A program made the translations under genes and the position numbers. Positions 4,731-39,556 of a stretch of 64,000 nt of DNA are shown piece after piece; within the stretch, counting starts at the first letter, position 1, and every line of letters begins with the position of its first letter. The stretch is from Aureispira sp. CCB-QB1 (GTDB lineage: Bacteria; Bacteroidota; Bacteroidia; Chitinophagales; Saprospiraceae), in the NCBI RefSeq assembly GCF_000724545.1, contig NZ_JHBV01000030.1, positions 1-64,000 of the forward strand, written 5' to 3'. The notes under the pieces are model-generated. The model saw only the letters and a list, made by a program, of their open reading frames with translations, made no database searches and was not told the DNA's origin.

Positions 4731-4899
4731 TAAGTAATCGTTCATAAAAATTTATAGGCAAAATAGAATTCTTTTTGCACTGTTCTTCATCAAAAAATCT
4801 CGTTTTAGCCCGCTAAAACTTCAATTCTTTTCTTTGAACAGCACTAAAAACAATTACATTTTTAACTATACTTTTTTCTGTCCACTTACTTATCACGAA
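4731..4899 (+). repeat. 169-nt structured element, family B copy 1
   Basis: This block aligns without gaps to the reverse complement of 39388-39556 (about 134 of 169 positions identical, counted by hand). The ends are complementary (TAAGTAA at the start, TTACTTA near the end). A central perfect hairpin, GTTTTAGC-CC-GCTAAAAC (4802-4819), is flanked by CTGTTC/GAACAG. It has stops in the frames examined, so it is not a gene. It occupies much of the 418-nt gap between the WG-repeat gene and the metallophosphoesterase. Confidence 0.8.
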
Positions 4900-4959
4900 T
4901 TAATTTGTATAGCTAAAAAATAGCATTTTCCAATTTCTCATAAAACCAATTCGTGATAA
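4890..4959. repeat. 12-bp perfect inverted repeat at the edge of element B1
   Basis: TTATCACGAATT (4890-4901) and AATTCGTGATAA (4948-4959) are exact reverse complements separated by 46 nt. The left arm includes the last bases of element B1. The 10-mer TTATCACGAA recurs at 25983, 38624 and, inverted, at 39388, always between genes. Confidence 0.7.
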
Positions 4960-5031
4960 TGTCTTTTTGGGGAGCATTGAGCAGATTTGTAGTAAGTAAG
5001 AACAAGTTCTAAAACTAGATTTAAAGCCTCC

Positions 5032-5781
5032 TTACTTATTCTGAAAAAAAACGTCTTGCTCCTCTATCCAAATACTTAAAACCCCTGTTGTCTTACAGCC
5101 TTGATCTAGATTGATAACATTACCCATTTTTTGTGGAATCGACCAATTATACTTAATCGTTGGCGTATGCCCGATGTAAATTTTCTCAAATTGATCTATT
5201 TTTGTTACTTTTTTATCAACCCAAGCCCCCTCCTGTTCCAAATTCCATAATTGTACCACTTTTCGAAACAAGGTTCTATCCCATAGCAACGACTCTGGAT
5301 AAAATTGCAACGATGCTTCAAAGCCCATTTGATAATCAAAACCAGCATGTACAAATAATTTTTGGTTTTCGATGTGATATAATTTTAACTTATCAAAAAA
5401 TGCCGTTTTATGCCTCAAAATTTCCGCATCACTTCGTTGCGCATAAGATAGATAGGTAGACAAACCACCACTCAGCATCCAGTCTCTGTATTTGGTAGTT
5501 ATAAATCGATCTACTCTAAATTGTTCAAAATTTTGATTCAGTACCTCCAAAAACCATTCTTCATGATTCCCTTTCAAGTAAATATTTTCAAAGGGCGATG
5601 CTGCTTGCAACGCAATCAACTTATCTACCACCTCATAAGAATACTTCCAACCATCAATATAATCTCCCAAACAAATAATTCGATCTTCGCTAGGAGAATA
5701 ATGGGCTGCCTTCAAAGCACTTTCTAGTGCATCAATACTGCCGTGAATATCTCCGATAACTAATGTTCTTTTATATTCCAT
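5032..5781 (-). CDS. Metallophosphoesterase, serine/threonine protein phosphatase type
   Basis: A 249-residue cytoplasmic protein of the calcineurin-like phosphoesterase superfamily. All metal-binding motifs are visible in order: GDIHG (10-14), LGDYIDGW, KGNHEEWF, then FVHAGF and IGHTPT. This set is typical of the PrpA/lambda-phosphatase branch, which removes phosphate from proteins using two metal ions, but diadenosine tetraphosphatases look similar and the substrate cannot be decided here. No signal peptide is present. It stands alone between two repeat-containing gaps. Confidence 0.85.
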   Translation of the reverse strand: MEYKRTLVIGDIHGSIDALESALKAAHYSPSEDRIICLGDYIDGWKYSYEVVDKLIALQAASPFENIYLKGNHEEWFLEVLNQNFEQFRVDRFITTKYRDWMLSGGLSTYLSYAQRSDAEILRHKTAFFDKLKLYHIENQKLFVHAGFDYQMGFEASLQFYPESLLWDRTLFRKVVQLWNLEQEGAWVDKKVTKIDQFEKIYIGHTPTIKYNWSIPQKMGNVINLDQGCKTTGVLSIWIEEQDVFFQNK

Positions 5782-5872
5782 TTTGATGTGTTTAGATATC
5801 AGTTTTTAAATCAATGGCATAAAAAAGTATAGATAAATTCAACGATGCTTGCTACTACATGAAGTTGCTTGC

Positions 5873-5904
5873 CTTAATGAGCTATTATCTTAATGAGCTA
5901 TTAT
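5873..5904. repeat. 16-bp tandem duplication
   Basis: CTTAATGAGCTATTAT occurs twice in direct tandem (5873-5888 and 5889-5904) in the gap between the Hsp70 gene and the phosphatase gene. It looks like a recent slippage duplication. Confidence 0.9.
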
Positions 5905-5906
5905 TA

Positions 5907-5935
5907 AAAGAAAAAGGAAACTGCAAACAGTTCCC
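5907..5935 (-). terminator. Terminator of the Hsp70 gene
   Basis: Read on the minus strand, GGGAACTG-TTTG-CAGTTTCC forms an eight-pair stem with one G-T wobble, followed by a T-rich run (TTTTTCTTTT). It lies just after the stop codon of the Hsp70 gene. Confidence 0.85.
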
Positions 5936-5960
5936 TTCCTTTTCTTAACAACTATTCTGT

Positions 5961-7823
5961 TTATAGTTTTTTTCCCTTCATCGCATTGGCGATATTAGCA
6001 TCCAAAGCTCGATGTGCCAATGGCGTTGTATATTCGTTTAGTTCTTCCATTCGTTGATGAATCAAATCTTTGTCTTCACCCTTAGAAGCTGTTTCAAGAG
6101 CTGTTACCAACTCCATTGTCTTCTCTACCTCTTCTTTGGTCAATATGGTGACATTTTGTTGGATAAATTTACGAGAAGCCAATACGACATTTTGAGCTTC
6201 GGTACGAGCCTCAATCAACGCCCGTACAGCCATATCTCCTTTAGCATTCTGAATTGACTCTAATAGCATACGCCCCATTTCTTCTTCAGAAATCCCATAA
6301 GGAGAACGCATTTCTACTGTTTGCTCTACCCCTGAGCGTAATTCTTTTGCCCGAACTTTTAAAATACCATCCGCATTCAACAGAAAATGAATTTCAATTT
6401 TGGGAATTCCTGCCGCCATTGGAGGTATGCCACGCAAAACAAACTCTCCTAACTTTCTATTATCAGCAACCAAATCACGTTCACCTTGATATACAGCTAC
6501 TTTTAGGTTGGTTTGCCCATCTACCGAAGTAGTATATTGACGACCAGCTTTGATTGGAACTTTTGTATTTCTCGCTATAATGGTATCCATTAGCCCTCCT
6601 ACTGTTTCAATTCCCAACGACAAAGGCGTTACATCTAATAACAATATATCCTGATTATTTCCTGCCAAAATATCCGCTTGCACTGCGGCGCCCAAAGCAA
6701 CAACTTCATCTGGATTAAGCGTATTGTTAAGCTTTTTATCAAAAAACTGTCCTACCCGTTGCTGTATTAAATCCATTCGAGTCGAGCCACCTACCATAAT
6801 AACTTCATCAATATCTCTAATACTTAACTCTGCATCTTTGAGTGCATTTTCGCAAGCTGCCAAAGTTCGTTGTACCAAAGGTTGCACCATTTCTTCAAAT
6901 TGATCTTTGGTCATTTGGCAAGTAATTCCAGCGATAGTTGTTTCAAAAGTAGCTTTCTTTGCAAAAGATTTTTTGGCTGCTTCTGCTGCTAATCGAAGTT
7001 CTTGTGTCAGTGCGGCATTATTATCTGTATCAAATTTGTAGGTATCCATCCAATATTGCTGAATCGCACGATCAAAGTCATCCCCTCCCAAGAAAGTATC
7101 TCCATTTGTAGACAACACCTCAAAGATACCATGTTCTATCTTAAGAATAGAAATATCAAATGTTCCGCCTCCCAAATCATAAACAGCAACCGTTTTAATA
7201 TCATCTGCATCCAACCCAATTCCATATGCCAAACTTGCCGCAGTGGGTTCATTGACAATACGCAAGACATCCAGTCCTGCTAATTTCCCTGCATCCCGTG
7301 TTGCTTGACGTTGGGCATCGTTAAAATAAGCAGGAACTGTAATAACGGCACGAGTCACCTCAGCACCAAGCGTTTTCTCAATACGTCGTTTGAGTTGTGC
7401 CAAAATTTTTGCCGACAATTCAATTGGCGTATAAAATTTATCCTTAATCCTAATTTTAACCAAGCTATCTTCTACCTCATTATCAATAATTTGATAAGAA
7501 AAAAAGCGCTTATAGTCTTCCACATCTTGATACGATTTTCCCATCAATCGCTTAATCGAAAAAATAGTATTCTCTGGATCTGTCACTAATTTTTCAATCG
7601 CATCATGCCCTACCACTACAGAATTTTCATTTTCAAAATGTATAATAGATGGGACTAAGGCATTTTTACCAATATGATCCGTAACAACAGTCGGCGTTCC
7701 ATCTAACATATAAGCAACTAAACTATTTGTTGTTCCTAGGTCTATACCAATAATAACGTTTTCTTTTGGTACTTCTACTTCTTTTAATGTTCCCTTCGTT
7801 AAGTCTATTGGAATTTTTGCCAT
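5961..7823 (-). CDS. hscA: Hsp70-family chaperone, HscA-like
   Basis: A 620-residue Hsp70. The N-terminal ATPase has the phosphate-1 signature GIDLGTTNS (26-34), [10 protein letters not shown] and the MVGGSTRM loop; the substrate-binding domain follows ([14 protein letters not shown]). A 25-residue extension precedes the ATPase core, and the C-terminal lid is short, with no EEVD tail. These points match the Bacteroidota proteins usually named HscA (iron-sulfur cluster assembly chaperone) better than the main DnaK, which is longer. No hscB, iscU or ferredoxin gene is adjacent, so a general DnaK role cannot be excluded. A possible minus-strand -7 box, TACTTTTG, lies at 8031-8038. The 436-nt gap upstream holds nothing else that I can identify. 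Confidence 0.75.
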
Positions 7824-8259
7824 AACGTTTTATTTGTTCTCATTTTGTTGGTTCTTGTACAAATCATGTTTTTACTATTATTATAGTACGTAAAAAATCA
7901 ACGAACTACTTATATATAAATACACATTATTTATCAAAGAACAGTTTTGTTTAAACTAAAAAGTTTGCCTGCTGTATTTCAGACAACATATTATCACACA
8001 AGTTTGTTGATATCTTATATGAATTAGCCACAAAAGTACTAAGAACCAACTATAATTTAAACCTATTGGTCTAAAAACATTTGTTCTTCTTTAACAAAAT
8101 GAAATTCTCCTTCTAGTTTTTATGCTTCATTTTCTTCTTTTAGTTTTTTATTTTTAATATAAGGCAGTGTCCTCTCCAATAGAAAAAGAAAAATGGTTTG
8201 TTTTTTCAGTTTTTTTTTCTTAAATTTACTCGAATTCTTAAAGTCCACCTATTGGAGTA

Positions 8260-9225
8260 TTGGGCTTTGTAGGTAATTGTTTCTATCAATCATTTTTAAC
8301 CCATTTTACTGTGGCATTTAATATTCTAACCAAATTCAAACCGGATCAAATAAAAAGTAGAAATCTTGATACTGGCTTTTTGAGTAAGTATTATAAAGGT
8401 ATACAAAACATACTGATTCAAAAGACGCATGTTGAGCAAACAACAGAGTATTTCTTTTGTGAGAATTATACTGCTGATGAGCATCTACTAGTTTTTGGTA
8501 CACCCACAGCAACGCAAAAAATGCTATTTAAGGCAGCAGGAAAAGGGCAAGAAGGATTTGATAAGACAAAAGTCTCGATGGGAACTTGTTTTATTTTGAA
8601 CGAAAAAGGCAGCAAAGTACTTTGTCTTTATCCCAATTTATCGCTAGCTAAAGGCAAAAAAGCTAGTGTCATGAGGACACTAAAAAAAATGCAACGTACT
8701 TCATTAAAATTAATTGATGAAATTCGTTGGTTAGATGCTCCTCTTATGGTCGATTCTGAAGATCCTTCGAAAATAGAACAGGTTGTTGACCCCAATACTT
8801 CGAATACTGAAAACAATCAAACGGTACTGGTTAGTACAGAGGAAATTGTAGATAAAGCCAAAAACTTAAAACGGGGAATTGAAAAATTGGTAAAGGATGT
8901 CATGCCTCGTTATAAAAAGAGAGAAACCACCAATAACGATGCTGCTTTTGTAAAAGCGCTTCGAAAAGCAGGGCATCTTTTTTTAGCGCAATTAACTCAA
9001 ACCGATGAAAAAACTAGAAATAGTTTTACTTCTCAGAAAAAAGTTTTGGAATCTGGATTACCTCAATGGAAAGAGTTAGAATCAAGAATTCATTCACAAA
9101 AAAGCAAAGCAGAAAGTAGGGCAACATTAAAAAAATCACTACTAGGAGTAGTTGAAAAAATGAATGAACGCCGATCTGAAATAAAAACAATTTTGAAACG
9201 AGTAAACCTTAAAACACTTGGATAA
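8260..9225 (+). CDS. Protein of unknown function, coiled C-terminal half
   Basis: A 321-residue protein I do not recognise. The frame opens after a stop at 8239-8241 and contains no ATG before residue 88, so the start must be TTG 8260 or another non-ATG codon; GGAG lies just upstream (8254-8257). Residues 30-160 look globular (SKYYKGIQNILIQ, LLVFGTPTATQKM, CFILNEKGSKVLCLYP), then an acidic Ser/Asn linker (about 165-195), then a Lys/Arg-rich helical region likely to form coiled coils. No signal peptide or membrane segment is obvious. The next gene, 74 nt downstream, has a similar plan (globular head, acidic linker, helical tail), suggesting the two act together. Confidence 0.6.
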   Translation: MGFVGNCFYQSFLTHFTVAFNILTKFKPDQIKSRNLDTGFLSKYYKGIQNILIQKTHVEQTTEYFFCENYTADEHLLVFGTPTATQKMLFKAAGKGQEGFDKTKVSMGTCFILNEKGSKVLCLYPNLSLAKGKKASVMRTLKKMQRTSLKLIDEIRWLDAPLMVDSEDPSKIEQVVDPNTSNTENNQTVLVSTEEIVDKAKNLKRGIEKLVKDVMPRYKKRETTNNDAAFVKALRKAGHLFLAQLTQTDEKTRNSFTSQKKVLESGLPQWKELESRIHSQKSKAESRATLKKSLLGVVEKMNERRSEIKTILKRVNLKTLG

Positions 9226-9299
9226 AATATAGCATTTTGCTTCATGGATTACTCTTATCTGTAATTTTAACATTCACACTTAAAAAAACATAAAAACCA

Positions 9300-10190
9300 A
9301 TGGCAAAGGAATTATTTGACTTTAAGGCATTTCAAGCATTAAAATATGCAGAATACAAAAAACAACACGCTAAAACAGCTGTTGTAAAAAAAGCAAAAGC
9401 AGGTCTAGTATTTACAAAGTATAACCTTGGTAGCAAAAAGAAAATTGCTGTTTTTATTCCTTTTCTAAAATGGGACGAAGCAGACAAAGCCTATAAAGCA
9501 TTAAAAAAAGACAAGAGTATCCACTTAGTTAAATGGACTTCTTTGGTAAAAGCAACTCAAGGCAAAGGTGAAATCACTTTAGAAATCAAAAAAGGAGGTC
9601 TAACAGCAGATGTCATTGTAGAAGAATTGAACGAGCTATTTGACAAAACAATTAAATTAAAACTAAATGTAACGGGTACATCAGAAGATGCTTCTGAAAT
9701 TGATACCAATACAGAGCTTGAACCTGAAACTAAGACTGAACCCAATAATAACACGGACGATACGCTTGAAGAAGAAACGGAACTAAGTACATTAGGTGAC
9801 TTGAAAAGCGCATTCCAAGAGGCTAAAAAGATTTACGATCAAGTTGCAAAAGTAGACAGTTCTAAAAAGCCTAAGGTAATACTTTCTGCTTGGAATAAAA
9901 TTGAAGAATTGATGCCTCAATTGGAGACTTTCATTTCTAGCTCTGATAAAGACAAACAAGTAGAAGCGGCTAAAAAAATTAATGAAGCGGCTAAAACTAT
10001 TCAGAATAAACTTCAACCTCATATTGACAAAATTAGAGCAAAACAAGGAGAAAAATCTAATAGCAATTTAGATACCTTAACTAGCGGTATTAGCAACAAA
10101 GCAGCTCAGTTATTATCTAAATACAAAGACCAAATTGAATCTATCGAAGGTTTGGCAGAAAAATTACAAAACATCAGTCAAATTGCCTAA
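9300..10190 (+). CDS. Protein of unknown function, acidic linker and helical tail
   Basis: A 296-residue protein I do not recognise. The N-terminal 120 residues are basic with alternating strands and helices (KKIAVFIPFLKWDEADKAYK, IHLVKWTSLVKATQGKGE). A strongly acidic, Thr/Asn/Glu-rich linker spans about 125-165, and the rest (170-296) is predicted by eye to be long amphipathic helices (DLKSAFQEAKKIYDQVAK, KIEELMPQLETFISS). No signal peptide or membrane segment is seen. It follows the preceding unknown gene by 74 nt on the same strand and ends at a good terminator, so the two probably form an operon. Confidence 0.7.
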   Translation: MAKELFDFKAFQALKYAEYKKQHAKTAVVKKAKAGLVFTKYNLGSKKKIAVFIPFLKWDEADKAYKALKKDKSIHLVKWTSLVKATQGKGEITLEIKKGGLTADVIVEELNELFDKTIKLKLNVTGTSEDASEIDTNTELEPETKTEPNNNTDDTLEEETELSTLGDLKSAFQEAKKIYDQVAKVDSSKKPKVILSAWNKIEELMPQLETFISSSDKDKQVEAAKKINEAAKTIQNKLQPHIDKIRAKQGEKSNSNLDTLTSGISNKAAQLLSKYKDQIESIEGLAEKLQNISQIA

Positions 10191-10263
10191 ATTGCTCCGT
10201 AAGCAGCGACTAGGAAAAGCGCTGTTTTAAGACTCGAATTATACAATACATTTAATATAAATC

Positions 10264-10297
10264 AAAGGTTGTGTTCAATGAATGCAACCTTTTTTGT
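10264..10297 (+). terminator. Terminator after the unknown gene pair
   Basis: AAAGGTTG (10264-10271) pairs perfectly with CAACCTTT (10285-10292), followed by T's. The rest of the 328-nt gap up to the adenine deaminase gene shows no gene. Confidence 0.8.
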
Positions 10298-10518
10298 TGA
10301 AGTAGATGAGCATAAAAACTAAGTTTATTTATAGTATTAATCGAAAAGCAAAGAGGAAACAGTTCGATGTTACGATACAGTAGCCCCCAAGATGTTTTTT
10401 GATAAAAAATCGTACAAAAAGAAATGCAGTTTACTTGTATATTTTCTAAACGATTAGTTATTTTAATTAAATTTGGATTTAACTTTTTGTCTCTCAAACT
10501 ACTCAAATTGGACTAAGT

Positions 10519-12141
10519 ATGATAATCAAAACTAATTACGTTGATATAAACAATCGAACCATCTTTGCTGCTAAAATTGAGCTAAAGGACAAAAAAATAG
10601 CTCAAATTACTCCCATTAATGAATCAGTGGAAGGCTATGCTATTCCTGGATTTGTCGATGCACATGTGCACATAGAAAGTTCTATGCTCATTCCTTCTGA
10701 GTTTGCCCGTTTAGCAGTCATTCACGGTTCCGTCGGAACGGTCTCTGATCCTCATGAAATTGCTAATGTAATGGGGCTTGAAGGGGTTTATTATATGATT
10801 GAAAATGGGAAAAAAGTGCCCTTTAAGTTTAATTTTGGGGCTCCTTCTTGTGTTCCTGCTACTAGTTTTGAAACAGCAGGGGCAGAAATTGATGTGGAAG
10901 GAATCAAAACATTGATGGCGGACAACGACATCAAATATATGGCAGAAATGATGAATTACCCTGGGGTAATTTTTGAGGATCCCATGGTTATGGCTAAACT
11001 AGCAGCTGCCAAGGCTGCTAACAAACCTATTGATGGGCATGCTCCAGGTGTTCGAGGGGAACAAATTCAAAAATACATTCAGGCAGGTATTAGTACCGAT
11101 CACGAATGTTTTGAATTGGAAGAAGCCTTGGAAAAACTCAGCTTGGGTATGAAAGTTATCATTCGAGAAGGTTCTGCTGCTAAAAATTTTGACACCTTAA
11201 TTTCTATACTTCCCGAGCATACAGCTAACGTTATGTTTTGTTCGGATGATAAACATCCTGATGACCTTATGTTGGGTCATATCAACCAACTAGCAGCAAG
11301 AGCAGTGGCACAGGGTATTCCCTTATTTGATGTCCTTCAAGTTGCCTGCATCAACCCAGTACAACATTACAATTTAGATATTGGATTATTACAAGTGGGC
11401 GATTGGGCAGACTTTGCCATTGTAAAAGATCTACAGAATTTTGAAGTTGAAGCTACCTATATCAATGGGCAACTTGTTGCTCAAGACGGTAAATCACTTA
11501 TTCATAGAGTGGATGAAGTAGCTATTAATAACTTCAATACCTACCCTAAAGAGGCTAAAGAGTTTGTCTGTGTTCCTCAAACAGAAACCCTTCATGTGAT
11601 CAAAGCAATTGATGGCGCCTTGATTACTGAAAGTTTTGAAGCCCCTGCCAAAATTGAGCAGGGCAATACCATATCTAACACCGAAACAGATGTTCTCAAA
11701 ATGGTCGTTGTGAATCGTTATTCCAATACACCTCCCGCTGTTGCCTTTATCAATGGATTTAATTTAAAAGAAGGGGCATTGGCATCTTGTGTAGGACACG
11801 ATTCTCACAATATTATTGCGGTCGGAACAGATGATGATGCCATTTGTAAAGCAGTTAATTTAATTATAAAAAACAAAGGGGGTATTTCGGCAATTGGTTC
11901 TCAACAAGAACACGTTTTGCCACTTCCTGTCGCTGGTATTATGTCAACCGATGAAGGTGAGCTTGTCGCCAATTTATATTCTACAATTGACCGATTTTCA
12001 AAGGAGCAATTGGGCTGTAGTCTAAGAGCCCCTTTTATGACACTATCTTTTATGGCTTTGTTGGTTATTCCTAGATTAAAATTAAGTGACAAAGGGCTAT
12101 TTGATGGAGGTGATTTCAAATTTACGCCTTTATTTGTATAA
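10519..12141 (+). CDS. ade: Adenine deaminase
   Basis: A 540-residue metal-dependent amidohydrolase that converts adenine to hypoxanthine and ammonia in purine salvage. Motifs in order: [14 protein letters not shown] (metal ligands His-x-His), [34 protein letters not shown], and the C-terminal domain motif [12 protein letters not shown] that marks the Ade subfamily. The length is a little under the approximately 590 residues common in this family. It is cytoplasmic and monocistronic, with the convergent flippase-like gene downstream. Confidence 0.95.
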
Positions 12142-12207
12142 AGCTATCTATAATGGGTACAATAGTTCGTTCCAAAATGAATGGGCTATTGTATTCCTAT
12201 TCCTTTA

Positions 12208-14267: not shown

Positions 14268-14346
14268 TAAGTAATCGTTCAGAAAAAATTATATAAACCA
14301 CGCTAGCAACGTAGCTAACTAAAAGCAAAACGCTCACGAAGTAAAC
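14268..14346. repeat. Truncated family B element joined to a family A repeat
   Basis: 14268-14297 matches the start of element B2 at 29 of 30 positions (TAAGTAATCGTTCAGAAAAA and onward). It then switches abruptly to a family A sequence (14298-14346: CACGCTAGCAACGTAGCTAA ... CGCTCACGAAGTAAAC). The following bases, AACAACC then a T-run and G, resemble the next part of B2, so A may have inserted into B. Confidence 0.6.
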
Positions 14347-14548: not shown

Positions 14549-17089
14549 ATGGACGAGAATAAAAATTTCACAAAAAAATTTACTAAAAAGAAAGATGCTT
14601 TCTCTGAGCACGGGAAGGTGCAACCTCAAGCTATTAACTTAGAAGAGGCGGTACTTGGTGCATTAATGCTTGATAAAGATGCCGTTGCTTTGATTATTGA
14701 TATTTTACGTCCTGCTTCTTTTTATAGGGAAGCTCATCAGCATATTTATAAAGCTATCTGTGTACTCTTTGAAAAAAGCCATCCTATTGACTTGTTAACA
14801 GTGACAGAGGAGTTGAAGAAAATGGGGAAACTGGAAATGGTCGGAGGACCTTATCAATTAGTAGAATTGACCAATCGTGTCGCTTCGTCTGCTAACATTG
14901 AATTCCATGCCCGAATCATAGCTCAAAAATTTATTCAGAGAGAACTAATCAGAAGTTCTACCGAAACCATCCGAGCTGCTTATGAAGATACGGTAGATGT
15001 TTTTGACTTGCTCGATAGCGCAGAGCAAAATTTATTCAACATCACAGAACAGAACCTAAGCCGTGGCTCGTTGGGTATGAGTACATTGGTCAATATGGCT
15101 GTTAAACAGCTGGAGGAAATGAGTGGAAAAGAAGAGGGCTTAACAGGGGTTCCTACAGGTTTTGTCAATTTGGATAAATTGACATCGGGTTGGCAGCCTT
15201 CTGATTTAATTATTATTGCAGCTCGACCAGGTATGGGAAAGTGTTTGGGCAAAGGCACGAAAGTGCTCAAATATGATGGACAACTTGAAAAAGTCGAAAA
15301 TATCCAAGTTGGAGATTTATTGATGGGAGATGATTCCACGCCTCGAACAGTTGCGTCTATTGCTCGTGGCAAAGAAAAAATGTACTGGATTTATCAAAAT
15401 GAAGGCATTCCTTACAGAGTCAATGAAAGTCATGTCTTGTCACTAAAATCTAGTGCTACTTATGATTCTTATGCCAAAGGAGAGGTCTTAAATATTTCTG
15501 TTAAAGACTGGCTTGGCAAATCGGATTCTTTTAAATCTAATTTCAAAGGATATAAAGTTCCTGTTGATTTTCAAGCACAAACAACCTCATTGCCTTCTTA
15601 TTTCATTGGTTTGTGGTTAGGTCTTGGTACAGGTACAGCTAATCATGCATCATATAAAACACAAAACCAAAAAGCGGTTCGTTATATTCGTCAATTTGCG
15701 ACACAACAAAACTTGTCAATTGAAACCAGACAGTTAAGAGAAAATATTTCTCAGTCTACTGTTGAGCACTCTCAAATATCTAGTGGTTATAGTTTGATGA
15801 ATGATTTACAGCAATTGAACTTAATTAAAAACAAACATATTCCGACAGAATATCTTATCAACTCCTCAAACAAGCGTTTGGATTTATTGGCAGGGTTCAT
15901 TGATAGTAGTGGGCGTTATATCGCTGCATCCGATTGCTATGAAATTGCCATAACAGAGCTATCTATCGCTGAACAACTTAAGTTTTTATGTGATTCTCTA
16001 GGATTTAGAACCTCATTGGTAAGCACCGAAAAATCCCAAACCTCATCATCTAGCCTTGCTACTTATACCCTTTCTATTCGTGGTAACATTGCCAATATTC
16101 CTGTAAGGATCAACAACCAAGCCGAAGTTCGTGCTTATCAAAAAGATTGGCGCTTAACGGATATTCGAGTTGAAGAAGACATAGTAGACGATTATTATGG
16201 TTTTACTCTAGATAAAAACCACCTGTTTTTATTAGAGGATATGACTGTGACACACAATACTTCTTTTACAATGGCTGTCGCTAGAAATGCTGCTATTGAG
16301 TTCAACAAAGGAGTTGCCTTTTTCTCTTTAGAGATGTCTTCATTGCAGTTGGTCAATCGTTTAATTTCTATGGAAACAGAAATTGCTTCTGAAAAATTAC
16401 GTAAAGGACAATTGGAAGACTACGAATGGCAACAACTACATGCTCAAGTCGATAAACTAAGTAATGTTCCATTGTATATTGATGATACACCTGGTATTAG
16501 TATCTTTGAACTACGCGCTAAGTGCCGCCGTTTAAAAATGCAACACGACATTCAGATGGTTATTATTGACTACCTACAATTGATGACTGGTGGTGGCGAT
16601 AATAAAGGCAATCGAGAACAAGAGATTTCGATGATTTCTCGTGGTTTAAAAGGATTGGCAAAAGAGTTAAATGTTCCTGTTATTGCACTTTCTCAATTGT
16701 CTCGTGCTGTAGAAACTCGTGGAGGGTCTAAACGTCCTCAATTATCGGATTTGAGGGAGTCTGGAGCCATCGAGCAAGATGCAGATATTGTATCCTTTAT
16801 TTATCGTCCAGAGTATTATCAAATTTTAGAAGATGAAGAAGGGAATTCGCTCAAAGGTATTGGAGAAATTATTGTCGCTAAACACCGTAACGGAGCGTTG
16901 GATTCTGTTCGCCTTAAGTGGGATGGGCAATATGCAAAATTCTCAAATTTAGATGATGATGCCTTTACTGGTTTGGATGATTCAAGTTTCTTTGATCAAG
17001 CTAACAACGAATTAAGCGGAGAAACTTTTTCGTCTAAGATGAATGAAGCTAATGAAAACAATAATGGGATTGATGATGTTCCATTCTAG
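14549..17089 (+). CDS. dnaB: Replicative DNA helicase DnaB containing an intein
   Basis: An 846-codon gene for the replication-fork helicase; removing the intein leaves 507 residues, normal for DnaB. The N-terminal domain (INLEEAVLGALMLDKDAV) begins near residue 28, and the RecA-like ATPase starts near 200 (GLTGVPTGFVNLDKLTSGW). The Walker A motif RPGMGK ends at residue 231 and is interrupted there; extein resumes with TSF at 571. Walker B/H2 (MVIIDYLQLM), SQLSRAVETRG, DLRESGAIEQDADIV and the Arg-finger region (VAKHRNGALD) are all intact. Because the P-loop is split, helicase activity must depend on protein splicing. The C-terminus carries a disordered Asn/Glu tail ending in DDVPF. Confidence 0.95.
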   Translation: MDENKNFTKKFTKKKDAFSEHGKVQPQAINLEEAVLGALMLDKDAVALIIDILRPASFYREAHQHIYKAICVLFEKSHPIDLLTVTEELKKMGKLEMVGGPYQLVELTNRVASSANIEFHARIIAQKFIQRELIRSSTETIRAAYEDTVDVFDLLDSAEQNLFNITEQNLSRGSLGMSTLVNMAVKQLEEMSGKEEGLTGVPTGFVNLDKLTSGWQPSDLIIIAARPGMGKCLGKGTKVLKYDGQLEKVENIQVGDLLMGDDSTPRTVASIARGKEKMYWIYQNEGIPYRVNESHVLSLKSSATYDSYAKGEVLNISVKDWLGKSDSFKSNFKGYKVPVDFQAQTTSLPSYFIGLWLGLGTGTANHASYKTQNQKAVRYIRQFATQQNLSIETRQLRENISQSTVEHSQISSGYSLMNDLQQLNLIKNKHIPTEYLINSSNKRLDLLAGFIDSSGRYIAASDCYEIAITELSIAEQLKFLCDSLGFRTSLVSTEKSQTSSSSLATYTLSIRGNIANIPVRINNQAEVRAYQKDWRLTDIRVEEDIVDDYYGFTLDKNHLFLLEDMTVTHNTSFTMAVARNAAIEFNKGVAFFSLEMSSLQLVNRLISMETEIASEKLRKGQLEDYEWQQLHAQVDKLSNVPLYIDDTPGISIFELRAKCRRLKMQHDIQMVIIDYLQLMTGGGDNKGNREQEISMISRGLKGLAKELNVPVIALSQLSRAVETRGGSKRPQLSDLRESGAIEQDADIVSFIYRPEYYQILEDEEGNSLKGIGEIIVAKHRNGALDSVRLKWDGQYAKFSNLDDDAFTGLDDSSFFDQANNELSGETFSSKMNEANENNNGIDDVPF
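15242..16258 (+). mobile_element. Intein in the DnaB P-loop, degenerate LAGLIDADG endonuclease
   Basis: A 339-residue in-frame insertion between Lys and Thr of the Walker A motif (GMGK/T), a known DnaB intein site. It starts with Cys1 (CLGKGTKV), has block B with NESH (His64), and ends with the splice motif VTHN followed by extein Thr+1, so splicing residues are complete. An endonuclease domain sits between (about 110-290). Its two LAGLIDADG helices are recognisable, FIGLWLGLG (121-129) and LAGFIDSSG (216-224), but the catalytic Asp positions carry Leu128 and Ser223. The endonuclease is therefore probably inactive while splicing is kept. Confidence 0.92.
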
Positions 17090-18507: not shown

Positions 18508-18663
18508 AAATATATTTATTTGATTATCAAAAAGATAAACCCTCACTGGTCTATCAACGGAGTATTAAGAATAATAATAGTCTTAAGTAAGAAAGCAGAA
18601 TTAGTTTAAATTATATTTTGTATTGGTGTCTGAGTTCTCACTTAGTATAAATTACACGGTAAC

Positions 18664-30938: not shown

Positions 30939-31058
30939 ATTATTTGTTTTTGATTAGGACTTTAATAGAATTCATCCCTTGTAGATAGCACTTATTTATC
31001 TTTATTGCTTATACAATAAAGCTTACAAAACAGTCCATCTACACGACGTTATCTAATA

Positions 31059-31568: not shown

Positions 31569-31637
31569 AATAAGTTCGTTTTTATTAGGTATAAAATATT
31601 AAGTTTCTATAGTCTTTTAAGTCTTTTAACCACAAGG

Positions 31638-32204: not shown

Positions 32205-32296
32205 TAGTATTTTTTTTGTATTAAATTTTGTAATTTGGACTTAAAAAAGTCAATTTTACCCATTTCTAATACCAGAAAGATAAAAGAAATTTGAAA

Positions 32297-32327
32297 CAAA
32301 TATAAGGCTTCTATTACAAAAAGCAAT
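32297..32327 (-). promoter_or_regulatory. Promoter of the efp-accB-accC operon
   Basis: Minus-strand TATATTTG (32304-32297) is an exact -7 element, and TTGC about 18 nt upstream is a fair -33 element. The start codon is 93 nt downstream. Confidence 0.6.
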
Positions 32328-32430
32328 TATTTGGTACGCATATCTAAGGTAGAATTACCTCCCTCCTTACAACAAAAACACATAAACAACTAAATAACAA
32401 CTACTTAAACACAAATATCAAATCCAAAAA

Positions 32431-33768: not shown

Positions 33769-34621
33769 ATTTGGCTTGTATTTGTTCGGCACGCTGGCAT
33801 TCCATAGCTATTTTGTCTGCAAATTCGTGCAAAGCTTCTATACTAAGAGCTTTGCCCGTTACCTTTAACTTAATTTCTAAGGTATAATCCTGTGCCATCC
33901 GAAACAACTCCTTTTCTTGCTCAGCAGTCAATTCAAATATTTCTGCAAAACGACTTAACTTCTCTTGCTCCTCTATTTGAAATTGGTTGTCAGTCAAAGC
34001 GACCGCAGCTACAATAACAAAAATCGTCAAACGACCATGCAAGCTTACTTTTTGGCAATCCGACTTTGTTAAATAAGGAGCAGTAATTAAATCACTTAGT
34101 TTTCCCATTTCATTATTCAAAAAATGGCTAAAAAACAAGCGTTCTTCTTGCTCTATCCGACCATCCGCACGAGCCATCTCGACCAACATTCGAGACATAA
34201 TTTTTTTATCATAATTCTCTGTCAATGGGTGTTGTCGAATATAGACTTCAAATTCTGAAAAATGAGTTGCCAAACGCCATTTTCCTGTTGTTTCAATATA
34301 AACAATCTCATCTAAAATAGATTCAAAAGCACGAACGACAGCCGCTTCCAATTCCTTTTTGGCAAAATAAACTGGTGGCGTATTTTCTGTAGCCGTTTCT
34401 TTTCGTCTAACCCCTTTGTTTAGAGCCCTCAACAACATGGAGCGCATCTTATTGGGATTCTTAACAATAATCCCTAAGCCACTAGCATCCTCTATTTTTT
34501 CTATCGTTGCATCGGCTTCAAACTCTCGCTCCTCTATTAAAAATCGACAGTACATCATTTCTCCCTGTTGTACTTCTGCGACAATATAAGGCTGAATAGC
34601 TTTGTAGGTTAGTTCTATCAT
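33758..34621 (-). CDS. TerB-like domain protein
   Basis: A 287-residue soluble protein. The N-terminal 120 residues are mixed alpha/beta of unknown type. Residues about 135-265 look like a TerB-type all-helical domain, with the family-like acidic turn MLVEMARADGRIEQEERLFF and a second similar turn AVALTDNQFQIEEQEKLSRF. TerB domains bind metals and occur in stress and envelope-associated proteins; the role here is unknown. It is monocistronic, and its 3' end overlaps the deacetylase-like gene. Confidence 0.55.
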   Translation of the reverse strand: MIELTYKAIQPYIVAEVQQGEMMYCRFLIEEREFEADATIEKIEDASGLGIIVKNPNKMRSMLLRALNKGVRRKETATENTPPVYFAKKELEAAVVRAFESILDEIVYIETTGKWRLATHFSEFEVYIRQHPLTENYDKKIMSRMLVEMARADGRIEQEERLFFSHFLNNEMGKLSDLITAPYLTKSDCQKVSLHGRLTIFVIVAAVALTDNQFQIEEQEKLSRFAEIFELTAEQEKELFRMAQDYTLEIKLKVTGKALSIEALHEFADKIAMECQRAEQIQAKFKA

Positions 34622-34737
34622 GAACTCTATGAATTTTTAATCGTTAAGAAGCTGTATTGATATTATTAATACTCCGTTGATTTTTCAGCTTGATTATCAG
34701 CCTTTTATTGCAAAGATCAACAAAAAGTTCATTTTAC

Positions 34738-34853
34738 TGATAATCAACTGCGAAGCACTCATGTAATAAACTAATACGATTTACTGCGTGAGCGCTTTGC
34801 TTTTAGTTAGCTGCGCTGCTACTGCGTGGTTTCAATGGAGTAATGATTATAGG
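34738..34853. repeat. Family A repeat, near-complete copy
   Basis: It contains GCACTCATGTAATAAACTAA (from 34756) and, in inverse orientation, TTTACTGCGTGAGCGCT (34780-34796), which together form an imperfect hairpin, followed by the inverted form of the AGCAGCGCAGCTAACTAAAA and CATTACTCCATTGAAACCAC blocks. It fills most of the gap between the TerB-like and channel genes. Confidence 0.75.
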
Positions 34854-34893
34854 AATTGCAAGGACAAATTCAATTTTCTATTTGAAGTTGAAT

Positions 34894-35817
34894 CTAAACC
34901 TTAGGTCTCTTAATAGGACGTCTACTATCATCATCGGGGCGATCACCGTCACCACTCGCTAAAGGTTTTCCTTTGGAATTTACTAATTTATCTTCGGCTT
35001 CTTTTTGTGATTCCAAAACAATTTGGAAATTGTTTACAATAGCGCCAATTACCAAGTTAATAAGCAAATAAGCTGCTATAATCATCCAAGAAACATGATA
35101 AAAAGTAATCACCGTATTCGATGCGACAGGTACACTTCCAGTCACTTCTTTCCCTGATAATAAGTTGTATCTCAAATCGGTCCAGTCCTCCCCCGTTAAA
35201 ATTCTAAACAACGTAAAAAATGCTTCTCCTAAATCACCGTAAGGGTCAGGATTACTAGATGTCAATTTGATATGCTCCGAATTAGCATAATCGGGATTTT
35301 TAAATAAAGTAACTCCTATGATCGCATAAATATACATGATTAGCAAGAAAAGAACAGCGATATACGATAAGGATCGTATCGACTTTATCAAGACACCAAT
35401 TAGCAACTGAAGTTCTCCAATAGCGCGAATAGAGCGTGTCAATTGGACAACCCTTAGTATTCGCAGTGTCGACATGATATTTTGTTGCTCTGCACTACTG
35501 TTTTCGAGTAAAATATCGGCTACTTCAGGAATAACGCCCAACATTAATATAAAGATATCAAACCAGTTCCACCAATCTCCAATATACTCCTCTGTTGTTC
35601 TTCGTCCAGTCCAACGAATAATGATTTCCAAAAAGAAAACAAATAAAATGGACAACTGAATCACTCGAATAGAATCGGGGGCATTGTCATAAGTTTGAAC
35701 TCCAATCAATAATCCGTTTAGGATAATGAGAAACATAATTCCTAATGTAAACCATTTGCTGTCTACAATCCGCCGCGCTATAAGCCTATATTTTGATCTA
35801 TTTTTTCTCATTTTCAA
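34894..35817 (-). CDS. Voltage-gated cation channel (single-domain, six TM) with a Cav-like filter
   Basis: A 307-residue channel subunit of the bacterial NaChBac superfamily, active as a tetramer in the inner membrane. S1-S3 are hydrophobic, S4 is TLRILRVVQLTRSIRAIGEL (regular positive charges), then S5, a pore helix and S6 (YLLINLVIGAIVNNFQIV). The filter reads LTGEDWTDLRYN, not the TLESW of NaChBac-type sodium channels; TGEDW is like eukaryotic Cav repeats. An unusual acidic insertion (YANSEHIKLTSSNPDPYGD) precedes the pore helix. The C-terminus is a short coiled segment and a Lys/Arg/Asp-rich tail. Ion preference (Ca or Na) cannot be fixed from sequence alone. Confidence 0.88.
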   Translation of the reverse strand: MKMRKNRSKYRLIARRIVDSKWFTLGIMFLIILNGLLIGVQTYDNAPDSIRVIQLSILFVFFLEIIIRWTGRRTTEEYIGDWWNWFDIFILMLGVIPEVADILLENSSAEQQNIMSTLRILRVVQLTRSIRAIGELQLLIGVLIKSIRSLSYIAVLFLLIMYIYAIIGVTLFKNPDYANSEHIKLTSSNPDPYGDLGEAFFTLFRILTGEDWTDLRYNLLSGKEVTGSVPVASNTVITFYHVSWMIIAAYLLINLVIGAIVNNFQIVLESQKEAEDKLVNSKGKPLASGDGDRPDDDSRRPIKRPKV

Positions 35818-36066
35818 TCTTCACCCCGTTTTTTAGAAGGCATTCTGCCTAATAAAAATTTAGTCACACATGCATCAAAATATCTATATAACTAAAATTG
35901 GGCTATCTAAAATGTTGAATTGGTCTATTTTCATTATTTTGCTCACAAGTATAGGTATAAACATCCTTTTAAGCAAGAAGAAAGGAGATAAAATCTAAGT
36001 AAAAAGACGAGTTTCTTTAAAAGAGAAAAATCCCACAAACTTTTAAGTTTGCAGGATTTTTAGTAG

Positions 36067-36137
36067 AGGTCGGAAGCGGATTCGAACCGCTGTAGGAGCT
36101 TTTGCAGAGCCCAGCCTAGCCGCTCGGCCACCCGACC
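36067..36137 (-). tRNA. tRNA-Cys (anticodon GCA)
   Basis: On the minus strand the cloverleaf is complete: acceptor GGTCGGG with TCCGACC (one G-T pair), D-arm GCCGAGCGGCTAGGC, anticodon stem GGGCT/AGCTC with loop CTGCAAA, T-arm GCGG-TTCGAAT-CCGC. Discriminator is U, as in tRNA-Cys. CCA is not encoded and must be added. Confidence 0.95.
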
Positions 36138-36156
36138 ATCGTTCCTTGATGGAATG

Positions 36157-36187
36157 CAAATATACCTTCTTTTTATAAAAGTACAAG
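36157..36187 (-). promoter_or_regulatory. Promoter of tRNA-Cys
   Basis: Minus-strand TATATTTG (36164-36157), an exact -7 element, with CTTG about 19 nt upstream, 20 nt before the tRNA 5' end. Confidence 0.65.
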
Positions 36188-36285
36188 TTTTTTGATGACT
36201 TTTTTTAAAGTAATTTTGCATTTATTTTTTATACAACTCATTTCCAGAGCTTTAAAAAAAATATTTTTTTTTTAGTAGAATGTTT

Positions 36286-36750
36286 CTATTTATAATCCTC
36301 TACTTTTGTCCATTCTATTTCTTCGATCAATTCATCAAAGAAGTCTTGGTATTCAACCAATCTTTGTGGAGAATCGTTCCGATTATAAATCATTTTTTTC
36401 TGATCGCCATCACGAACACTTGTTATACATACAGGGAAGTCAATAATTCCAAGCCCTTTGATAGGATATTTATTTTCCAAATGAATGTACCCTATAGATT
36501 TTGCTTTGTCTAACAATTGACGAATTTGTTTGGCAGAAATTCTTCCCTGATACAGTCCAATATTCGCTACATTTTTTCGCCCTTTATACGTGACAATACC
36601 ATTAGAATATACCTTTGCCTCATAATAAGGGCACTTTCCATAACAAGTTGTTCTTTCTAAAGAAGCTATCAACAACGATTCATCTACATTTTGAGCAATA
36701 GCAGTTAACGTCATTAATAGAAAAAAAGATAAAAAAAATACGATTCTCAT
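36286..36750 (-). CDS. Exported DUF6438-family protein
   Basis: A 154-residue protein with signal peptide (MRIVFFLSFFLLMTLTAIA, then QNVDES). The remainder matches the DUF6438 pattern seen in Bacteroidota: LERTTCYGKCPYYEAKVYSN with two cysteines four apart, GIVTYKGRKNV, a helix QIRQLLDKAKSIGYI, and a late IDFPVCITSVRDG. The function of the family is unknown; the two cysteines may form a disulfide in the periplasm. It is preceded by the tRNA-Cys gene on the same strand side and is monocistronic. Confidence 0.75.
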   Translation of the reverse strand: MRIVFFLSFFLLMTLTAIAQNVDESLLIASLERTTCYGKCPYYEAKVYSNGIVTYKGRKNVANIGLYQGRISAKQIRQLLDKAKSIGYIHLENKYPIKGLGIIDFPVCITSVRDGDQKKMIYNRNDSPQRLVEYQDFFDELIEEIEWTKVEDYK

Positions 36751-36848
36751 ATATCAGATATACTTTATTTTTTAACAAAAACTCATTCATACAACCATCG
36801 AGCCTCCTATTACTCTGTTAAGACTTCGACTCATAGCTATGTTAAAAA

Positions 36849-37136
36849 TTACGCCTTAATAACCTCTAACTCTTTGCTTGTCATACTTGGCACAAATTCA
36901 ACAATTGTATACGTTGCTACATTGTTTATTTTAAAAGGATCTTTATCCAAAATTTCTTCCAATTCTTTTTGGATAGTAAGGTTGCTAAGAATAATTCCTC
37001 CTGTTCTAGGCACCTTGCGTCCTGATACAATAAAATTACCATTGGCATATTGCTCCTTCAAATATTCGATGTGAGCCTCTAAATGTTCGTCTACTTGGTT
37101 AAGTTCTACTTTATAGGTTATATCTATTATAAACAT
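36849..37136 (-). CDS. YciI-family protein
   Basis: A 95-residue ferredoxin-fold protein of the YciI type (small dimeric alpha/beta-barrel). Typical points are the first strand FIIDITYKVEL, the helix with His (EHLEAHIEYLKEQYANGNF), SGRKVPRTGGIIL and DPFKINNVATYTIVEF. The family has a conserved His-Asp pair with possible catalytic use; functions are mostly unknown. It lies 98 nt before the DUF6438 gene on the same strand, and after a terminator of the preceding gene. Confidence 0.85.
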   Translation of the reverse strand: MFIIDITYKVELNQVDEHLEAHIEYLKEQYANGNFIVSGRKVPRTGGIILSNLTIQKELEEILDKDPFKINNVATYTIVEFVPSMTSKELEVIKA

Positions 37137-37174
37137 CGTTTTGTTTTTTTTTGAAAATACTAATCCACAATTAT

Positions 37175-37224
37175 TAAAAAGAAAAATCGTATGTATTGAA
37201 TTTTAGAAAACAACACATACGATT
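37175..37224 (-). terminator. Terminator of the 444-residue membrane protein gene
   Basis: On the minus strand AATCGTATGT and ACATACGATT (37224-37215 and 37194-37185) are perfect ten-base arms around a 20-nt loop, followed by TTTCTTTTT. Confidence 0.8.
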
Positions 37225-37261
37225 CATAATTGTTGTGCCCTTAGTTAGAGGCAAGCAAACC

Positions 37262-38596
37262 TTAAACCTTTAAGTTAGGATCATTGGGATCAAAATCATC
37301 TTTGATATCTCCAGGCATTGGAAAATCAGGATTATCTAAATCGTCTGGAAAATCAGGAATATCAATTGTATCCACATCCTTTATTTCCACCACTTCGCCT
37401 TTATCATTAACAATAGGCTCATCAAAATTATCGACTACCTCTGGTTGGTAATTATCCTCTACAATAGGCACATCCCCCTTACTTGTTGTAGGTTGGACAG
37501 GTTGGTGTGTTTTAGTAAAATCAATATCAACACCACCTACAGGCTTCATGTATTCATTCATAATTTGATTTAGCCTAAAGGCAATATCATCTTTATTAGC
37601 CCCATAATTCAACTCCTCTTTTAATTGCATCAATTTGATCGTAGATTTCATACGTTCAGCACCTTCTATTTGAGCTGTTTTTAGTTTAATGCTATCAATT
37701 TGTTGTTGCATTTTTAATTTAGCCGCCTCTTCTCTTGCCACCACCATATCACGAGCAGAACCACTGATAAAGGTTTCTATTGCCTCTACCATAGAATTTA
37801 ATATCTTGTGTACTACCCTAGCAGAAAAACCACCCAAAAAAGCTAAGACTGGCTTGTAAGTCATAAAACCGCCTAACTCTCTAGATCTAGTAACATTATC
37901 TGCTACATCTCCGACATCTTCTCCTAAAATCTCTGGAGATACGAAAATAAATTGTGCCAAGATAACCCCCGAAACAATCCCCAATACAAATCGAATCCAA
38001 TAAATAGAATCATATTTAGGATCGTAAGAGTTTTTGGTAATGTATTTATAAACTTCAAACAAAGCGTAAAAAGAAGCACCTAGTGCTGCTATACACAAAA
38101 TCACCAACTCATTGTAAACAAAAGCCATCCCTTCATAAGACAAAATATCGCCATTCACGGTCAAGGAATCTACTTCTGGCAAAAAGAACAAACCTAAGAA
38201 AGTCAACAAACAAAGCATGGTAATTACATTGAGTCGACGCACCAATGGTACTGGTCCCAAAAGTCCAAACATCCCACCGTGCTTATTCTCTTCCATCAAT
38301 AATACCGTCGCAGGAGTTGCTGGAGCAATTACTTTTGCCATTTCACGATGCAGTTGACCAATCAAAGCCATATTTAAAGAACGTGGGTCTAAGTTCTCTA
38401 TATTTCCTGCTTTTAACTCATCATTTAGCTCATGAGCAATGGCTTTTAAATCAGACATCTGTTTAAGAACATGCGAAGGAACTTTTTTGCCTTGCGACTG
38501 TGCATAGCGCACCATTGTTTCACACTCGTCTAATGTTCTAATTTGATTCTTAAAAGTTACAATATCTTTTAAGGCCTTAATTTCTTGTTTTGCCAT
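37262..38596 (-). CDS. Unknown membrane protein with acidic C-terminal tail
   Basis: A 444-residue protein I do not recognise. The N-terminal 115 residues are helical and soluble. Four likely membrane helices follow (LNVITMLCLLTFLGLFFLP; LVILCIAALGASFYALF; YWIRFVLGIVSGVILAQFIF; YKPVLAFLGGFSARVV). Then comes a coiled-coil segment rich in Lys/Gln (about 275-335), and a tail of about 90 residues with repeated Asp/Pro (IPDFPDDLDNPDFP, DDFDPNDPN). No signal peptide. The design suggests an inner-membrane scaffold with a cytoplasmic tail. It is monocistronic with a terminator. A -7-like box TAGATTTG lies at 38660-38667 on the minus strand. Confidence 0.65.
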   Translation of the reverse strand: MAKQEIKALKDIVTFKNQIRTLDECETMVRYAQSQGKKVPSHVLKQMSDLKAIAHELNDELKAGNIENLDPRSLNMALIGQLHREMAKVIAPATPATVLLMEENKHGGMFGLLGPVPLVRRLNVITMLCLLTFLGLFFLPEVDSLTVNGDILSYEGMAFVYNELVILCIAALGASFYALFEVYKYITKNSYDPKYDSIYWIRFVLGIVSGVILAQFIFVSPEILGEDVGDVADNVTRSRELGGFMTYKPVLAFLGGFSARVVHKILNSMVEAIETFISGSARDMVVAREEAAKLKMQQQIDSIKLKTAQIEGAERMKSTIKLMQLKEELNYGANKDDIAFRLNQIMNEYMKPVGGVDIDFTKTHQPVQPTTSKGDVPIVEDNYQPEVVDNFDEPIVNDKGEVVEIKDVDTIDIPDFPDDLDNPDFPMPGDIKDDFDPNDPNLKV

Positions 38597-38869
38597 CTTA
38601 GTTTATCTTTGGTCTATTAGATATTATCACGAAATGATTTTTGGGTAAGAATACATTGGCAAATCTAATGCATCAATTTTCTATTCTTGTTCTCTAGTTA
38701 TTTCTGATAATTTTTAGTGAATGTTATATAGGTTGGGTATTTCCTCCCTTCTTCATATAGAGGAGATTCCCTCATATTTTCAAAGGTTGCCTTACCTCGG
38801 TATAAGGTAAATATATCATAAAATTTGTACTTTTCTTAAAGTAAAAGTTTTTTTTATCAAAAAATACCG

Positions 38870-38877
38870 TACTTTTG
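38870..38877 (+). promoter_or_regulatory. -7 promoter element for rpsO
   Basis: TACTTTTG is an exact TAnnTTTG element 60 nt before the rpsO ATG. The leader contains the hairpin TTGATT-AGT-AATCAA (38905-38919), in a position where S15 often controls its own translation. Otherwise the 341-nt gap 38597-38937 shows only a loose palindrome TTACCT...AGGTAA near 38790-38810. Confidence 0.55.
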
Positions 38878-38937
38878 CAGAGCTAAAATATGATTTAGAA
38901 TATCTTGATTAGTAATCAATACAAAAAAATTCAAAAA

Positions 38938-39231
38938 ATGGGTATTTACCTAACAAAAGAAAAAACTGCTGAAATTTTTAAAAAATTTGGTGGTTCAGAA
39001 AAGAACACAGGTTCTACAGAAGGTCAAATTGCATTGTTAAGCTTTCGTATTCAAAACCTTTCTGAGCATTTAAAAGCAAACCACAAAGATCACTCTACTA
39101 GACGTTCTTTGTTGAAAATGGTTGGACATAGACGCTCTTTATTGGGTTACTTAGCTGACAAAGATGTTATCAAATATCGTGAGCTTATCAAAGAACTTGG
39201 AATAAGAGACGTTCTTGGTAAAAACAAATAA
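38938..39231 (+). CDS. rpsO: 30S ribosomal protein S15
   Basis: A 97-residue primary 16S rRNA-binding protein of the small subunit. The family core is clear: GSTEGQIALLSFRIQNLSEHL, KDHSTRRSLLKMVGHRRSLL and the C-terminal YLADKDVIKYRELIKELGIR. ATG 38938 (MGIYLTKEK) gives the standard length; an earlier non-ATG in-frame start would add 11 residues that fall in the leader hairpin. A terminator follows 20 nt after the stop; pnp lies downstream, as in many bacteria, but separated here by 524 nt with repeats. Confidence 0.97.
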   Translation: MGIYLTKEKTAEIFKKFGGSEKNTGSTEGQIALLSFRIQNLSEHLKANHKDHSTRRSLLKMVGHRRSLLGYLADKDVIKYRELIKELGIRDVLGKNK

Positions 39232-39251
39232 TGATACATACAAATACGTTT

Positions 39252-39288
39252 GAAAGTGCTTCCTGTCGGAGCACTTTCTTGCTTTTTA
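39252..39288 (+). terminator. Terminator of rpsO
   Basis: GAAAGTGCT (39252-39260) pairs with AGCACTTTC (39270-39278), followed by TTGCTTTTT. Confidence 0.85.
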
Positions 39289-39387
39289 CAGGTAGGCTTT
39301 TAAAGGTCTATTCTATACCTAGAATAGTATTTTTGAAGCTGCTGCTGCAACTATAACTTACTAATAAAAGATCTTCTCAAAGATTTT

Positions 39388-39556
39388 TTCGTGATAAGTA
39401 AGTGGGCAGAAAAAAATATAGCTAAAAATAGGCTTATTTTTAGTGCTAATCGAAGAGGAACAGTGCAGCTTTAGCGGGCTAAAGCAAGATGTTTCGATGA
39501 AGAGTAGCGCAAAAAGAAGGTTGTTTTTTATATAGTTTTTTCTGAACGATTACTTA
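39388..39556 (-). repeat. 169-nt structured element, family B copy 2 (inverted)
   Basis: On the minus strand it aligns without gaps to 4731-4899. The ends pair over a long panhandle: TAAGTAA, five unpaired, CAGAAAAAA, then TATA, against TATA, TTTTTTCTG, CCCAC, TTACTTA. The central hairpin is GCTTTAGC-CC-GCTAAAGC, where copy 1 has T-A in place of C-G at the second pair. It lies between rpsO and pnp. Confidence 0.8.

Follow-up and report, generated by a model that had tools for sequence, protein, structure and literature searches.

What are two closely similar, structured sequences doing in separate gene spacers of one bacterial contig? The question is raised by the first 64,000 nucleotides of contig NZ_JHBV01000030.1 of Aureispira sp. 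CCB-QB1 (the window, C30:1-64000 of a 7.37 Mb genome, G000), where an earlier note, made from the letters alone, had paired 4731-4899 with the reverse complement of 39388-39556 and suggested that the pair is structurally constrained, either as a folded RNA or as a hairpin-forming mobile element. We found that each is one of many copies of a small DNA element that has moved recently and is dispersed over the genome, and that this element is a miniature inverted-repeat transposable element (MITE) carrying a conserved core, which looks RNA-like from its strand asymmetry. We consider it probable that it is a non-autonomous MITE of the IS630 type whose strand-specific core has been selected as RNA.

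A dispersed element with inverted ends

The two sequences align over 169 columns with zero gaps (MAFFT) and are 79% identical across 169 (BLAST), in agreement with the equal length, lack of indels and 134/169 identities given in the earlier note. Although the 169 columns align gapless, the real unit is 162 bp (4731-4892, copy 1; 39395-39556, copy 2), because most full-length blastn matches stop at query 162-166, and only C26:28534 and the two window copies extend to query 169. The last seven shared bases (4893-4899, corresponding to 39388-39394 in copy 2, as placed by the blastn match ends) are flank, and in copy 1 they are part of a second palindromic repeat (about 4890-4960). The strand that bears the folded core, termed here the S strand, is the minus strand in copy 1 (model R1, 125.9 bits minus and 44.6 bits plus) and the plus strand in copy 2 (130.5 bits plus and 55.2 bits minus), both copies being themselves in the model. 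By alignment, the terminal inverted repeats TAAGTAA/TTACTTA lie at 4731-4737 (plus strand, TA + AGTAA) and 4886-4892 (minus strand) in copy 1, and at 39395-39401 (plus strand) and 39550-39556 (minus strand) in copy 2; wherever the empty site is known, the TA is the target that is duplicated. This end pairing and the central hairpin reported earlier (GTTTTAGC-CC-GCTAAAAC versus GCTTTAGC-CC-GCTAAAGC) are present, with the apical hairpin aligned at 4802-4819 (GTTTTAGCCCGCTAAAAC; 22 bp extra here in some related copies) and 39468-39485. Both copies are intergenic, as had been stated: copy 1 lies between open reading frames (ORFs) 3111-4613 and 5032-5781, and copy 2 is flanked by an ORF resembling rpsO (38905-39231) and one resembling pnp (39756-41981; gene names are our reading).

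At least 41 blastn matches were found in G000 (40 of 200 first-look candidates were scored, hence the counts are lower bounds), so the window pair is not a chance likeness; 19 matches, copy 1 among them, cover the full length at 99-100% identity, and copy 2 belongs to a looser set at 75-80%. The terminal-repeat pattern gave 205+218 matches versus 73+74 for the reversed control, indicating that the terminal-repeat family is larger than the blastn set. Copies of 184 bp exist, with the extra 22 bp inside the apical hairpin, and internal length variants of 61-63, 74-76, 97-99, 130-140, 181-184 and 206 bp were recorded. The earlier note held frequent indels to be incompatible with its reading; indels are few in the 162-bp class, but internal length variants do exist, as is normal for a MITE. 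Within the genus, related copies were found by blastn in G001, G003 and G006, and none in G002, G004, G005 and G007. Only one of 155 deduplicated sites falls inside a reading frame (one further had been set aside earlier); the first TAA of the element is the stop codon for 15 of 138 neighbouring gene ends and the second TAA for 3 more. The element is short, no coding capacity was seen in it, and it has many dispersed copies with terminal inverted repeats; it is a bacterial MITE with TAAGTAA inverted ends and an intergenic habit.

Recent movement was seen by comparison with G044, a closed genome of the same species, in which both window copies are present. Contig C30 and 380 kb of G044 align in blocks 99.2-99.6% identical, and 14 of 30 compared G000 loci share a site with one of 30 G044 loci. 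At C30:233376, a 184-bp copy is missing from G044, and TA occurs once in the empty site and twice in the filled site. A single TA stands in the empty G044 site at all eight placed sites (L021, L002, L004, L006, L011, L014, L020 and L030; seven placed by synteny, with L014 and L020 read by eye and showing one neighbouring substitution each), so TA is duplicated on insertion, and the strain differences would be insertions, not precise excisions. These empty sites, together with the copy number, bear out the mobile-element alternative of the earlier note. Copy 2 sits in the rpsO-pnp spacer, which is free of the element in G001, G003, G004 and G005. At C30:127885, G000 carries 162 bp where G044 has 61 bp with a different arm, and at L022/L207 the 22-bp tip differs between the strains.

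Several other repeats were observed alongside. The second palindromic repeat family (TTATCACGAATT...AATTCGTGATAA), which adjoins copy 1, occurs whole or in part at three other G044 places, and at L023 a TAAGTAA element seems inserted within a copy of it. A hairpin-like conserved stretch immediately 5' of pnp (about 39690-39730) is common to G000, G001, G003, G004 and G005, and much of the preceding spacer is not. A 1467-bp insertion sequence (ends CATGAGTCATCCCGAA) lies at about 6394985 and 6437593 of G044 C1, and both places match terminator-like hairpins in G000 (C30:168852-168883 and 210018-210043), as if it replaced or targeted terminators. A roughly 250-bp repeat (CAGCGGTTCTAACGATAAACGG...) is present in G044 at the sites matching C30:72145 and C30:351601, both of which lack it in G000; about 10-13 bp are repeated at its edges, which suggests another small mobile family. 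In the window, a terminal repeat at 14268-14288 with no short partner seen and a 61-bp R1 match at 18584-18644 (E 0.05) are probably short or decayed members of the element family, and the ORF at 14549-17089 is, in our reading, a DnaB-like replicative helicase apparently split by an intein.

The strand-specific core and its spread

The RNA folds of the window copies beat 200 dinucleotide shuffles in 4/4 cases (z -4.3 to -6.2). The consensus fold was obtained from alignment A3, which holds 18 elements, five of them from the genus Aureispira (from the preceding A2, L070 was dropped since the aligner misplaced its middle, L068 and L154 were also dropped, and three congener copies were added; L094 was never in). 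On the S strand it reaches -24.8 kcal/mol with 49 pairs, 35 of them with double changes, versus -2.0 kcal/mol and 12 pairs when the same set is realigned on the opposite strand. Paired cells amount to 89.4% versus 69.9% in shuffled alignments, and covariation is 0.524 versus 0.183 shuffled and at most 0.178 with slid partners; the slides keep relatedness and the shuffles do not. Structural constraint on the element is thus supported, by covariation that is strand-specific and far above both controls. The earlier note had read covariation from the two window copies, which alone could not have shown it; the claim holds across distant relatives, since the further copies covary in the 18-element alignment.

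The strands were compared further through wobble-type mismatches. In the A3 structure, G-U cells number 82 and A-C cells 18, a ratio that rests on a structure predicted for the same strand; a strand-neutral count is safer. In that count, one arm was aligned to the complement of the other, so that both strands were treated alike, and 19 clusters under 80% identity, oriented through the inner sequence motif and not through pairing, gave G-T 75 versus A-C 19 (p 5e-9). It used 66 of 100 elements, the 100 being 98 scan loci plus the window pair: L074, L086, L108, L141 and L156 were left out by name, and L094, L106, L107, L113, L154 and both window copies were put in by name, the latter two oriented by a weak motif score.

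Between the stems sits an inner loop. Among 38 strong-motif elements, [AG]AGGC begins 56-58 nt from the left end, and ACGnAG begins 59-62 nt from the right end in 37 of the 38, so that the loop is conserved in sequence and in its spacing from each end while the surrounding stems change. In alignment A3, the left half reads CAAAG (a variant of CRAGG) at 4832-4836 on the minus strand in copy 1 and CGAAG at 39451-39455 on the plus strand in copy 2, and the right half reads TGAAG (a variant of CGMAG) at 4785-4789 on the minus strand and at 39498-39502 on the plus strand. The scan of genome contigs by pattern admitted only 148-178 bp, and hence the clustering of lengths is partly by design and isolated matches outside Bacteroidota may be chance. 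When 210 elements were grouped into 56 clusters, both loop halves (CRAGG / CGMAG) were found on one strand in 21, against 0.00045 expected per element from shuffles. G-T exceeds A-C in 21/21 of these loop-keeping clusters (total 75 versus 12), and purine-purine mismatches exceed pyrimidine-pyrimidine ones (153 versus 43), a count that covers only the oriented 21 of 56 clusters, the other 35 being outside it.

At E 1e-5, R1 matches 9 of 60 genomes of the order, with at least 48 matches in G000, 47 in G025, 37 in G199, 33 in G125 and one or two in five others; since the model also scores TAAGTAA ends, a match that is weak, or about as strong on one strand as on the other, may lack the core. The loci taken for comparison (20 from G025, 16 from G199, 20 from G125 and 4 from other genomes) have other termini: TACGAATTACATT in G125, TAAGTACCTGGACA in G199, TAGGAATG or TAAGTAATGCGG in G025, and yet others in L303, L363 and L306. 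In G125, the same triplet, mostly TTA or TAA, stands on both flanks at 14 of the 19 sites read (of 20), which suggests a 3-bp duplication with moderate strength, as about half would agree by chance. Conversely, TAAGTAA ends also occur with other interiors, because some clusters without the loop bear them. Massilia (L158) is among the 21 loop-keeping clusters, and R1, built without Massilia, matches L070 at E 5e-9; Sulfurimonas and Lachnoclostridium loci give weaker matches on both strands, which shared ends may explain. The loop is thus found again in Massilia and in elements whose termini differ. We tentatively propose that the folded core could be a modular RNA passenger carried by, and swapped among, MITEs of more than one bacterial phylum whose ends, and perhaps target duplications, are not the same, the RNA and not the ends being what persists, although we would not favour this over narrower accounts.

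Mobilisation and competing explanations

Each copy is probably a non-autonomous DNA transposon of about 162 bp, and an IS630/Tc1-mariner-type DDE transposase acting in trans would bind its ends, excise it and insert it at TA with duplication of the TA. The duplication is shown by the eight sites above, and we infer the transposase step from similar IS630 ends and the published biochemistry of IS630 elements. Such ends were found in G006, a metagenome-assembled genome (MAG) of the same genus with three PF13358 (DDE_3) matches. One of them, L194 (223-1331), is an 1109-bp insertion sequence with TAAGTAGATGGACAAAA at both ends, beginning TAAGTAG (closely similar to the element ends, not identical), with overlapping helix-turn-helix and DDE ORFs (DDE: PF13358 2.4e-34, NF033545 1.8e-38); the other two loci (L272 and L277) have different ends. 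With the L194 DDE frame as query, 16 of 150 family genomes matched at 21 loci, of which 7 have paired TAAGT-type ends, 1 has a single such end at a contig edge, 3 are distant with other ends, and the remaining 10 had no ends detected, some being cut by contig ends. MAG.64 contains 158 terminal-repeat matches versus 11 in the control, and one IS630 end there reads TAAGTAAGTAATCA and adjoins a 167-bp element. The ends and the TA target thus fit IS630 mobilisation, with no detectable IS630 enzyme in this species; the mobilising transposase would have been lost, or supplied by a visiting element.

Candidates for an autonomous copy were rejected. Around unpaired ends in G000, a short partner (61-206 bp) was found in 15 of 20 regions, and no end partner appeared in the other five (L169, L174, L176, L182 and L183). 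The sole 1613-bp end pair encloses an HtrA-like gene. In L104 (5818-7525) and L128 (855-2563), from Porphyromonadaceae MAGs, elements flank a 1.7-kb unit that holds toxin-antitoxin-like genes (names are our reading) and no transposase, possibly a composite unit. Ends spaced at insertion-sequence length were not seen by eye in four other genomes among the matches listed.

Once inserted into a transcribed spacer, the element would yield an S-strand transcript forming a rod of 49 pairs with an apical hairpin and a conserved internal loop about 57 nt and 60 nt from the ends. The core would be best accounted for if such a transcript were recognised as RNA, for example by a double-strand RNA-binding protein such as RNase III, and the message were processed or stabilised by that protein, as the Correia element (below) suggests by analogy; the core may thus act as a site at which double-strand RNA is processed or the message stabilised.

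A plain palindromic MITE with no RNA role, whose arm covariation would come from palindrome correction at the DNA level (template switching) or from shared ancestry, is the strongest competitor, though we think it unlikely. Several results agree with it or weigh against a core selected as RNA. Derivatives having only the ends (61-63 bp and up) spread too, and the differing contents of C30:127885 in the two strains (162 and 61 bp) show that arms are exchanged or deleted. Neither loop half was present in 24 of the 56 clusters and only one in 11, while the window copies themselves carry the variant CRAAG / TGAAG and fall outside the 21 loop-keeping clusters; the 20 G125 copies summed gave A-C 41 above G-T 15. 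At deduplicated sites, the element was not clearly biased in its orientation to the neighbouring genes (46 sense and 36 antisense in tandem, p 0.32; 28 convergent and 41 divergent; downstream gene codirectional at 87/151, p 0.07), so selection by way of read-through RNA is not evident. A first count had given 41 versus 22 (p 0.02), with 33 of 150 left out (23 unoriented, 9 with no neighbour, 1 inside an ORF); the later count builds on the rest, and the bias was gone once G044 and duplicate sites were removed and new sites added. The shuffle control of covariation, as noted, does not preserve relatedness. The IS630 part of the reading meets its own difficulty, given the recent insertions: PF13358 had 0 matches in G000 and G044, and the L194 DDE protein found no match in this species at E 1e-10. 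What tells against a plain palindrome is that palindrome correction is strand-symmetric, yet the G-T excess holds in every loop-keeping cluster and purine mismatches prevail there, and that the inner loop holds its sequence and end distances while the neighbouring stems change.

A host non-coding RNA or cis-regulator that is multi-copy by happenstance would be structured, covarying and nearly always between genes, as the element is; it is very improbable in view of the eight sites that are filled in one and empty in the other of two strains whose sequences agree at about 99.4% over the contig compared, the four congeners whose rpsO-pnp spacer is free of the element, and the lack of any Rfam covariance-model match over the elements searched. 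Replichore bias was inconsistent, the S strand opposing the leading direction at 30 of 46 sites in G044 and at 24 of 48 in G003 (hand counts; 3 of 51 G003 matches were left out, namely the presumed terminus, contig C2 and a second-strand hit). Least probable, and already disfavoured, is a unit of the REPIN or IS200/IS605 kind that a Y1 transposase moves in the form of single-stranded DNA; this would account for the favoured strand and for the G044 replichore count, but agrees neither with the TA duplication and true inverted ends, nor with the even count in G003, nor with the absence of PF01797 (Y1/RAYT transposase) matches in G000 and G044.

Relation to known repeats and significance

The proposed IS630-type MITE with an RNA-like core has partial counterparts elsewhere. 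For RUP (repeat unit of pneumococcus), IS630-Spn1 has been proposed as the mobiliser on account of its similar ends, and like the window element RUP is non-autonomous, under 200 bp, with a TA target and IS630-resembling ends (PMC2229807). Unlike RUP, the window element has another host, IS630 is not detected in this species, and the inner core is common to elements with other ends. ISY100, of the IS630/Tc1 family, inserts almost exclusively at TA with TA duplication (PMC2170065); it and IS630/Tc1-mariner elements are autonomous and transposase-coding, whereas the window element is non-coding. ERIC, YPAL and other enterobacterial repeats, which are small and mobile and whose transcripts fold into long stem-loops (PMC2229807), were compared with the window element by description only.

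The Correia element of Neisseria (CREE/NEMIS) is the best analogy for function: its hairpin in mRNA binds RNase III, and it resembles the window element in inverted ends, TA termini, a directional core and two main length classes (PMC2649163 and PMC2229807). Against the Correia copies, R1 gave E 0.21, and two of 16 pairwise comparisons scored at the 5% level of 500 shuffles or below it. These copies were found via the Correia end, which we take to be TATAGTGGATTAAATTTAAA (present in the fetched contigs); they share CAAGGCG and CAACG with the S strand, but the element ends differ from TATAGTGGATTAAATTTAAA, and the right half is CGCCG, not CGMAG. The copies compared thus have short words in common with the element and no significant overall similarity.

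A literature search of titles and abstract openings found no description of this element among the papers listed, and the accessible text of a 2024 MITE review (PMC10969869) has no mention of Bacteroid-, IS630, Massilia or Saprospir-. As a MITE the element is ordinary, and, as far as our searches show, a strand-specific core across different ends is undescribed. The interior of a bacterial MITE is commonly regarded as mere filler between its ends; in the present case the interior keeps a conserved, strand-specific fold that occurs, across genera, together with several different ends, and the question of functional RNA in MITE hairpins becomes directly testable. The species offers a MITE with 8 positional strain differences, yet no detectable IS630 transposase. 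If the core were indeed a modular RNA passenger, it would be a bacterial counterpart of the RNA-bearing parasites of the short interspersed nuclear element (SINE) type.

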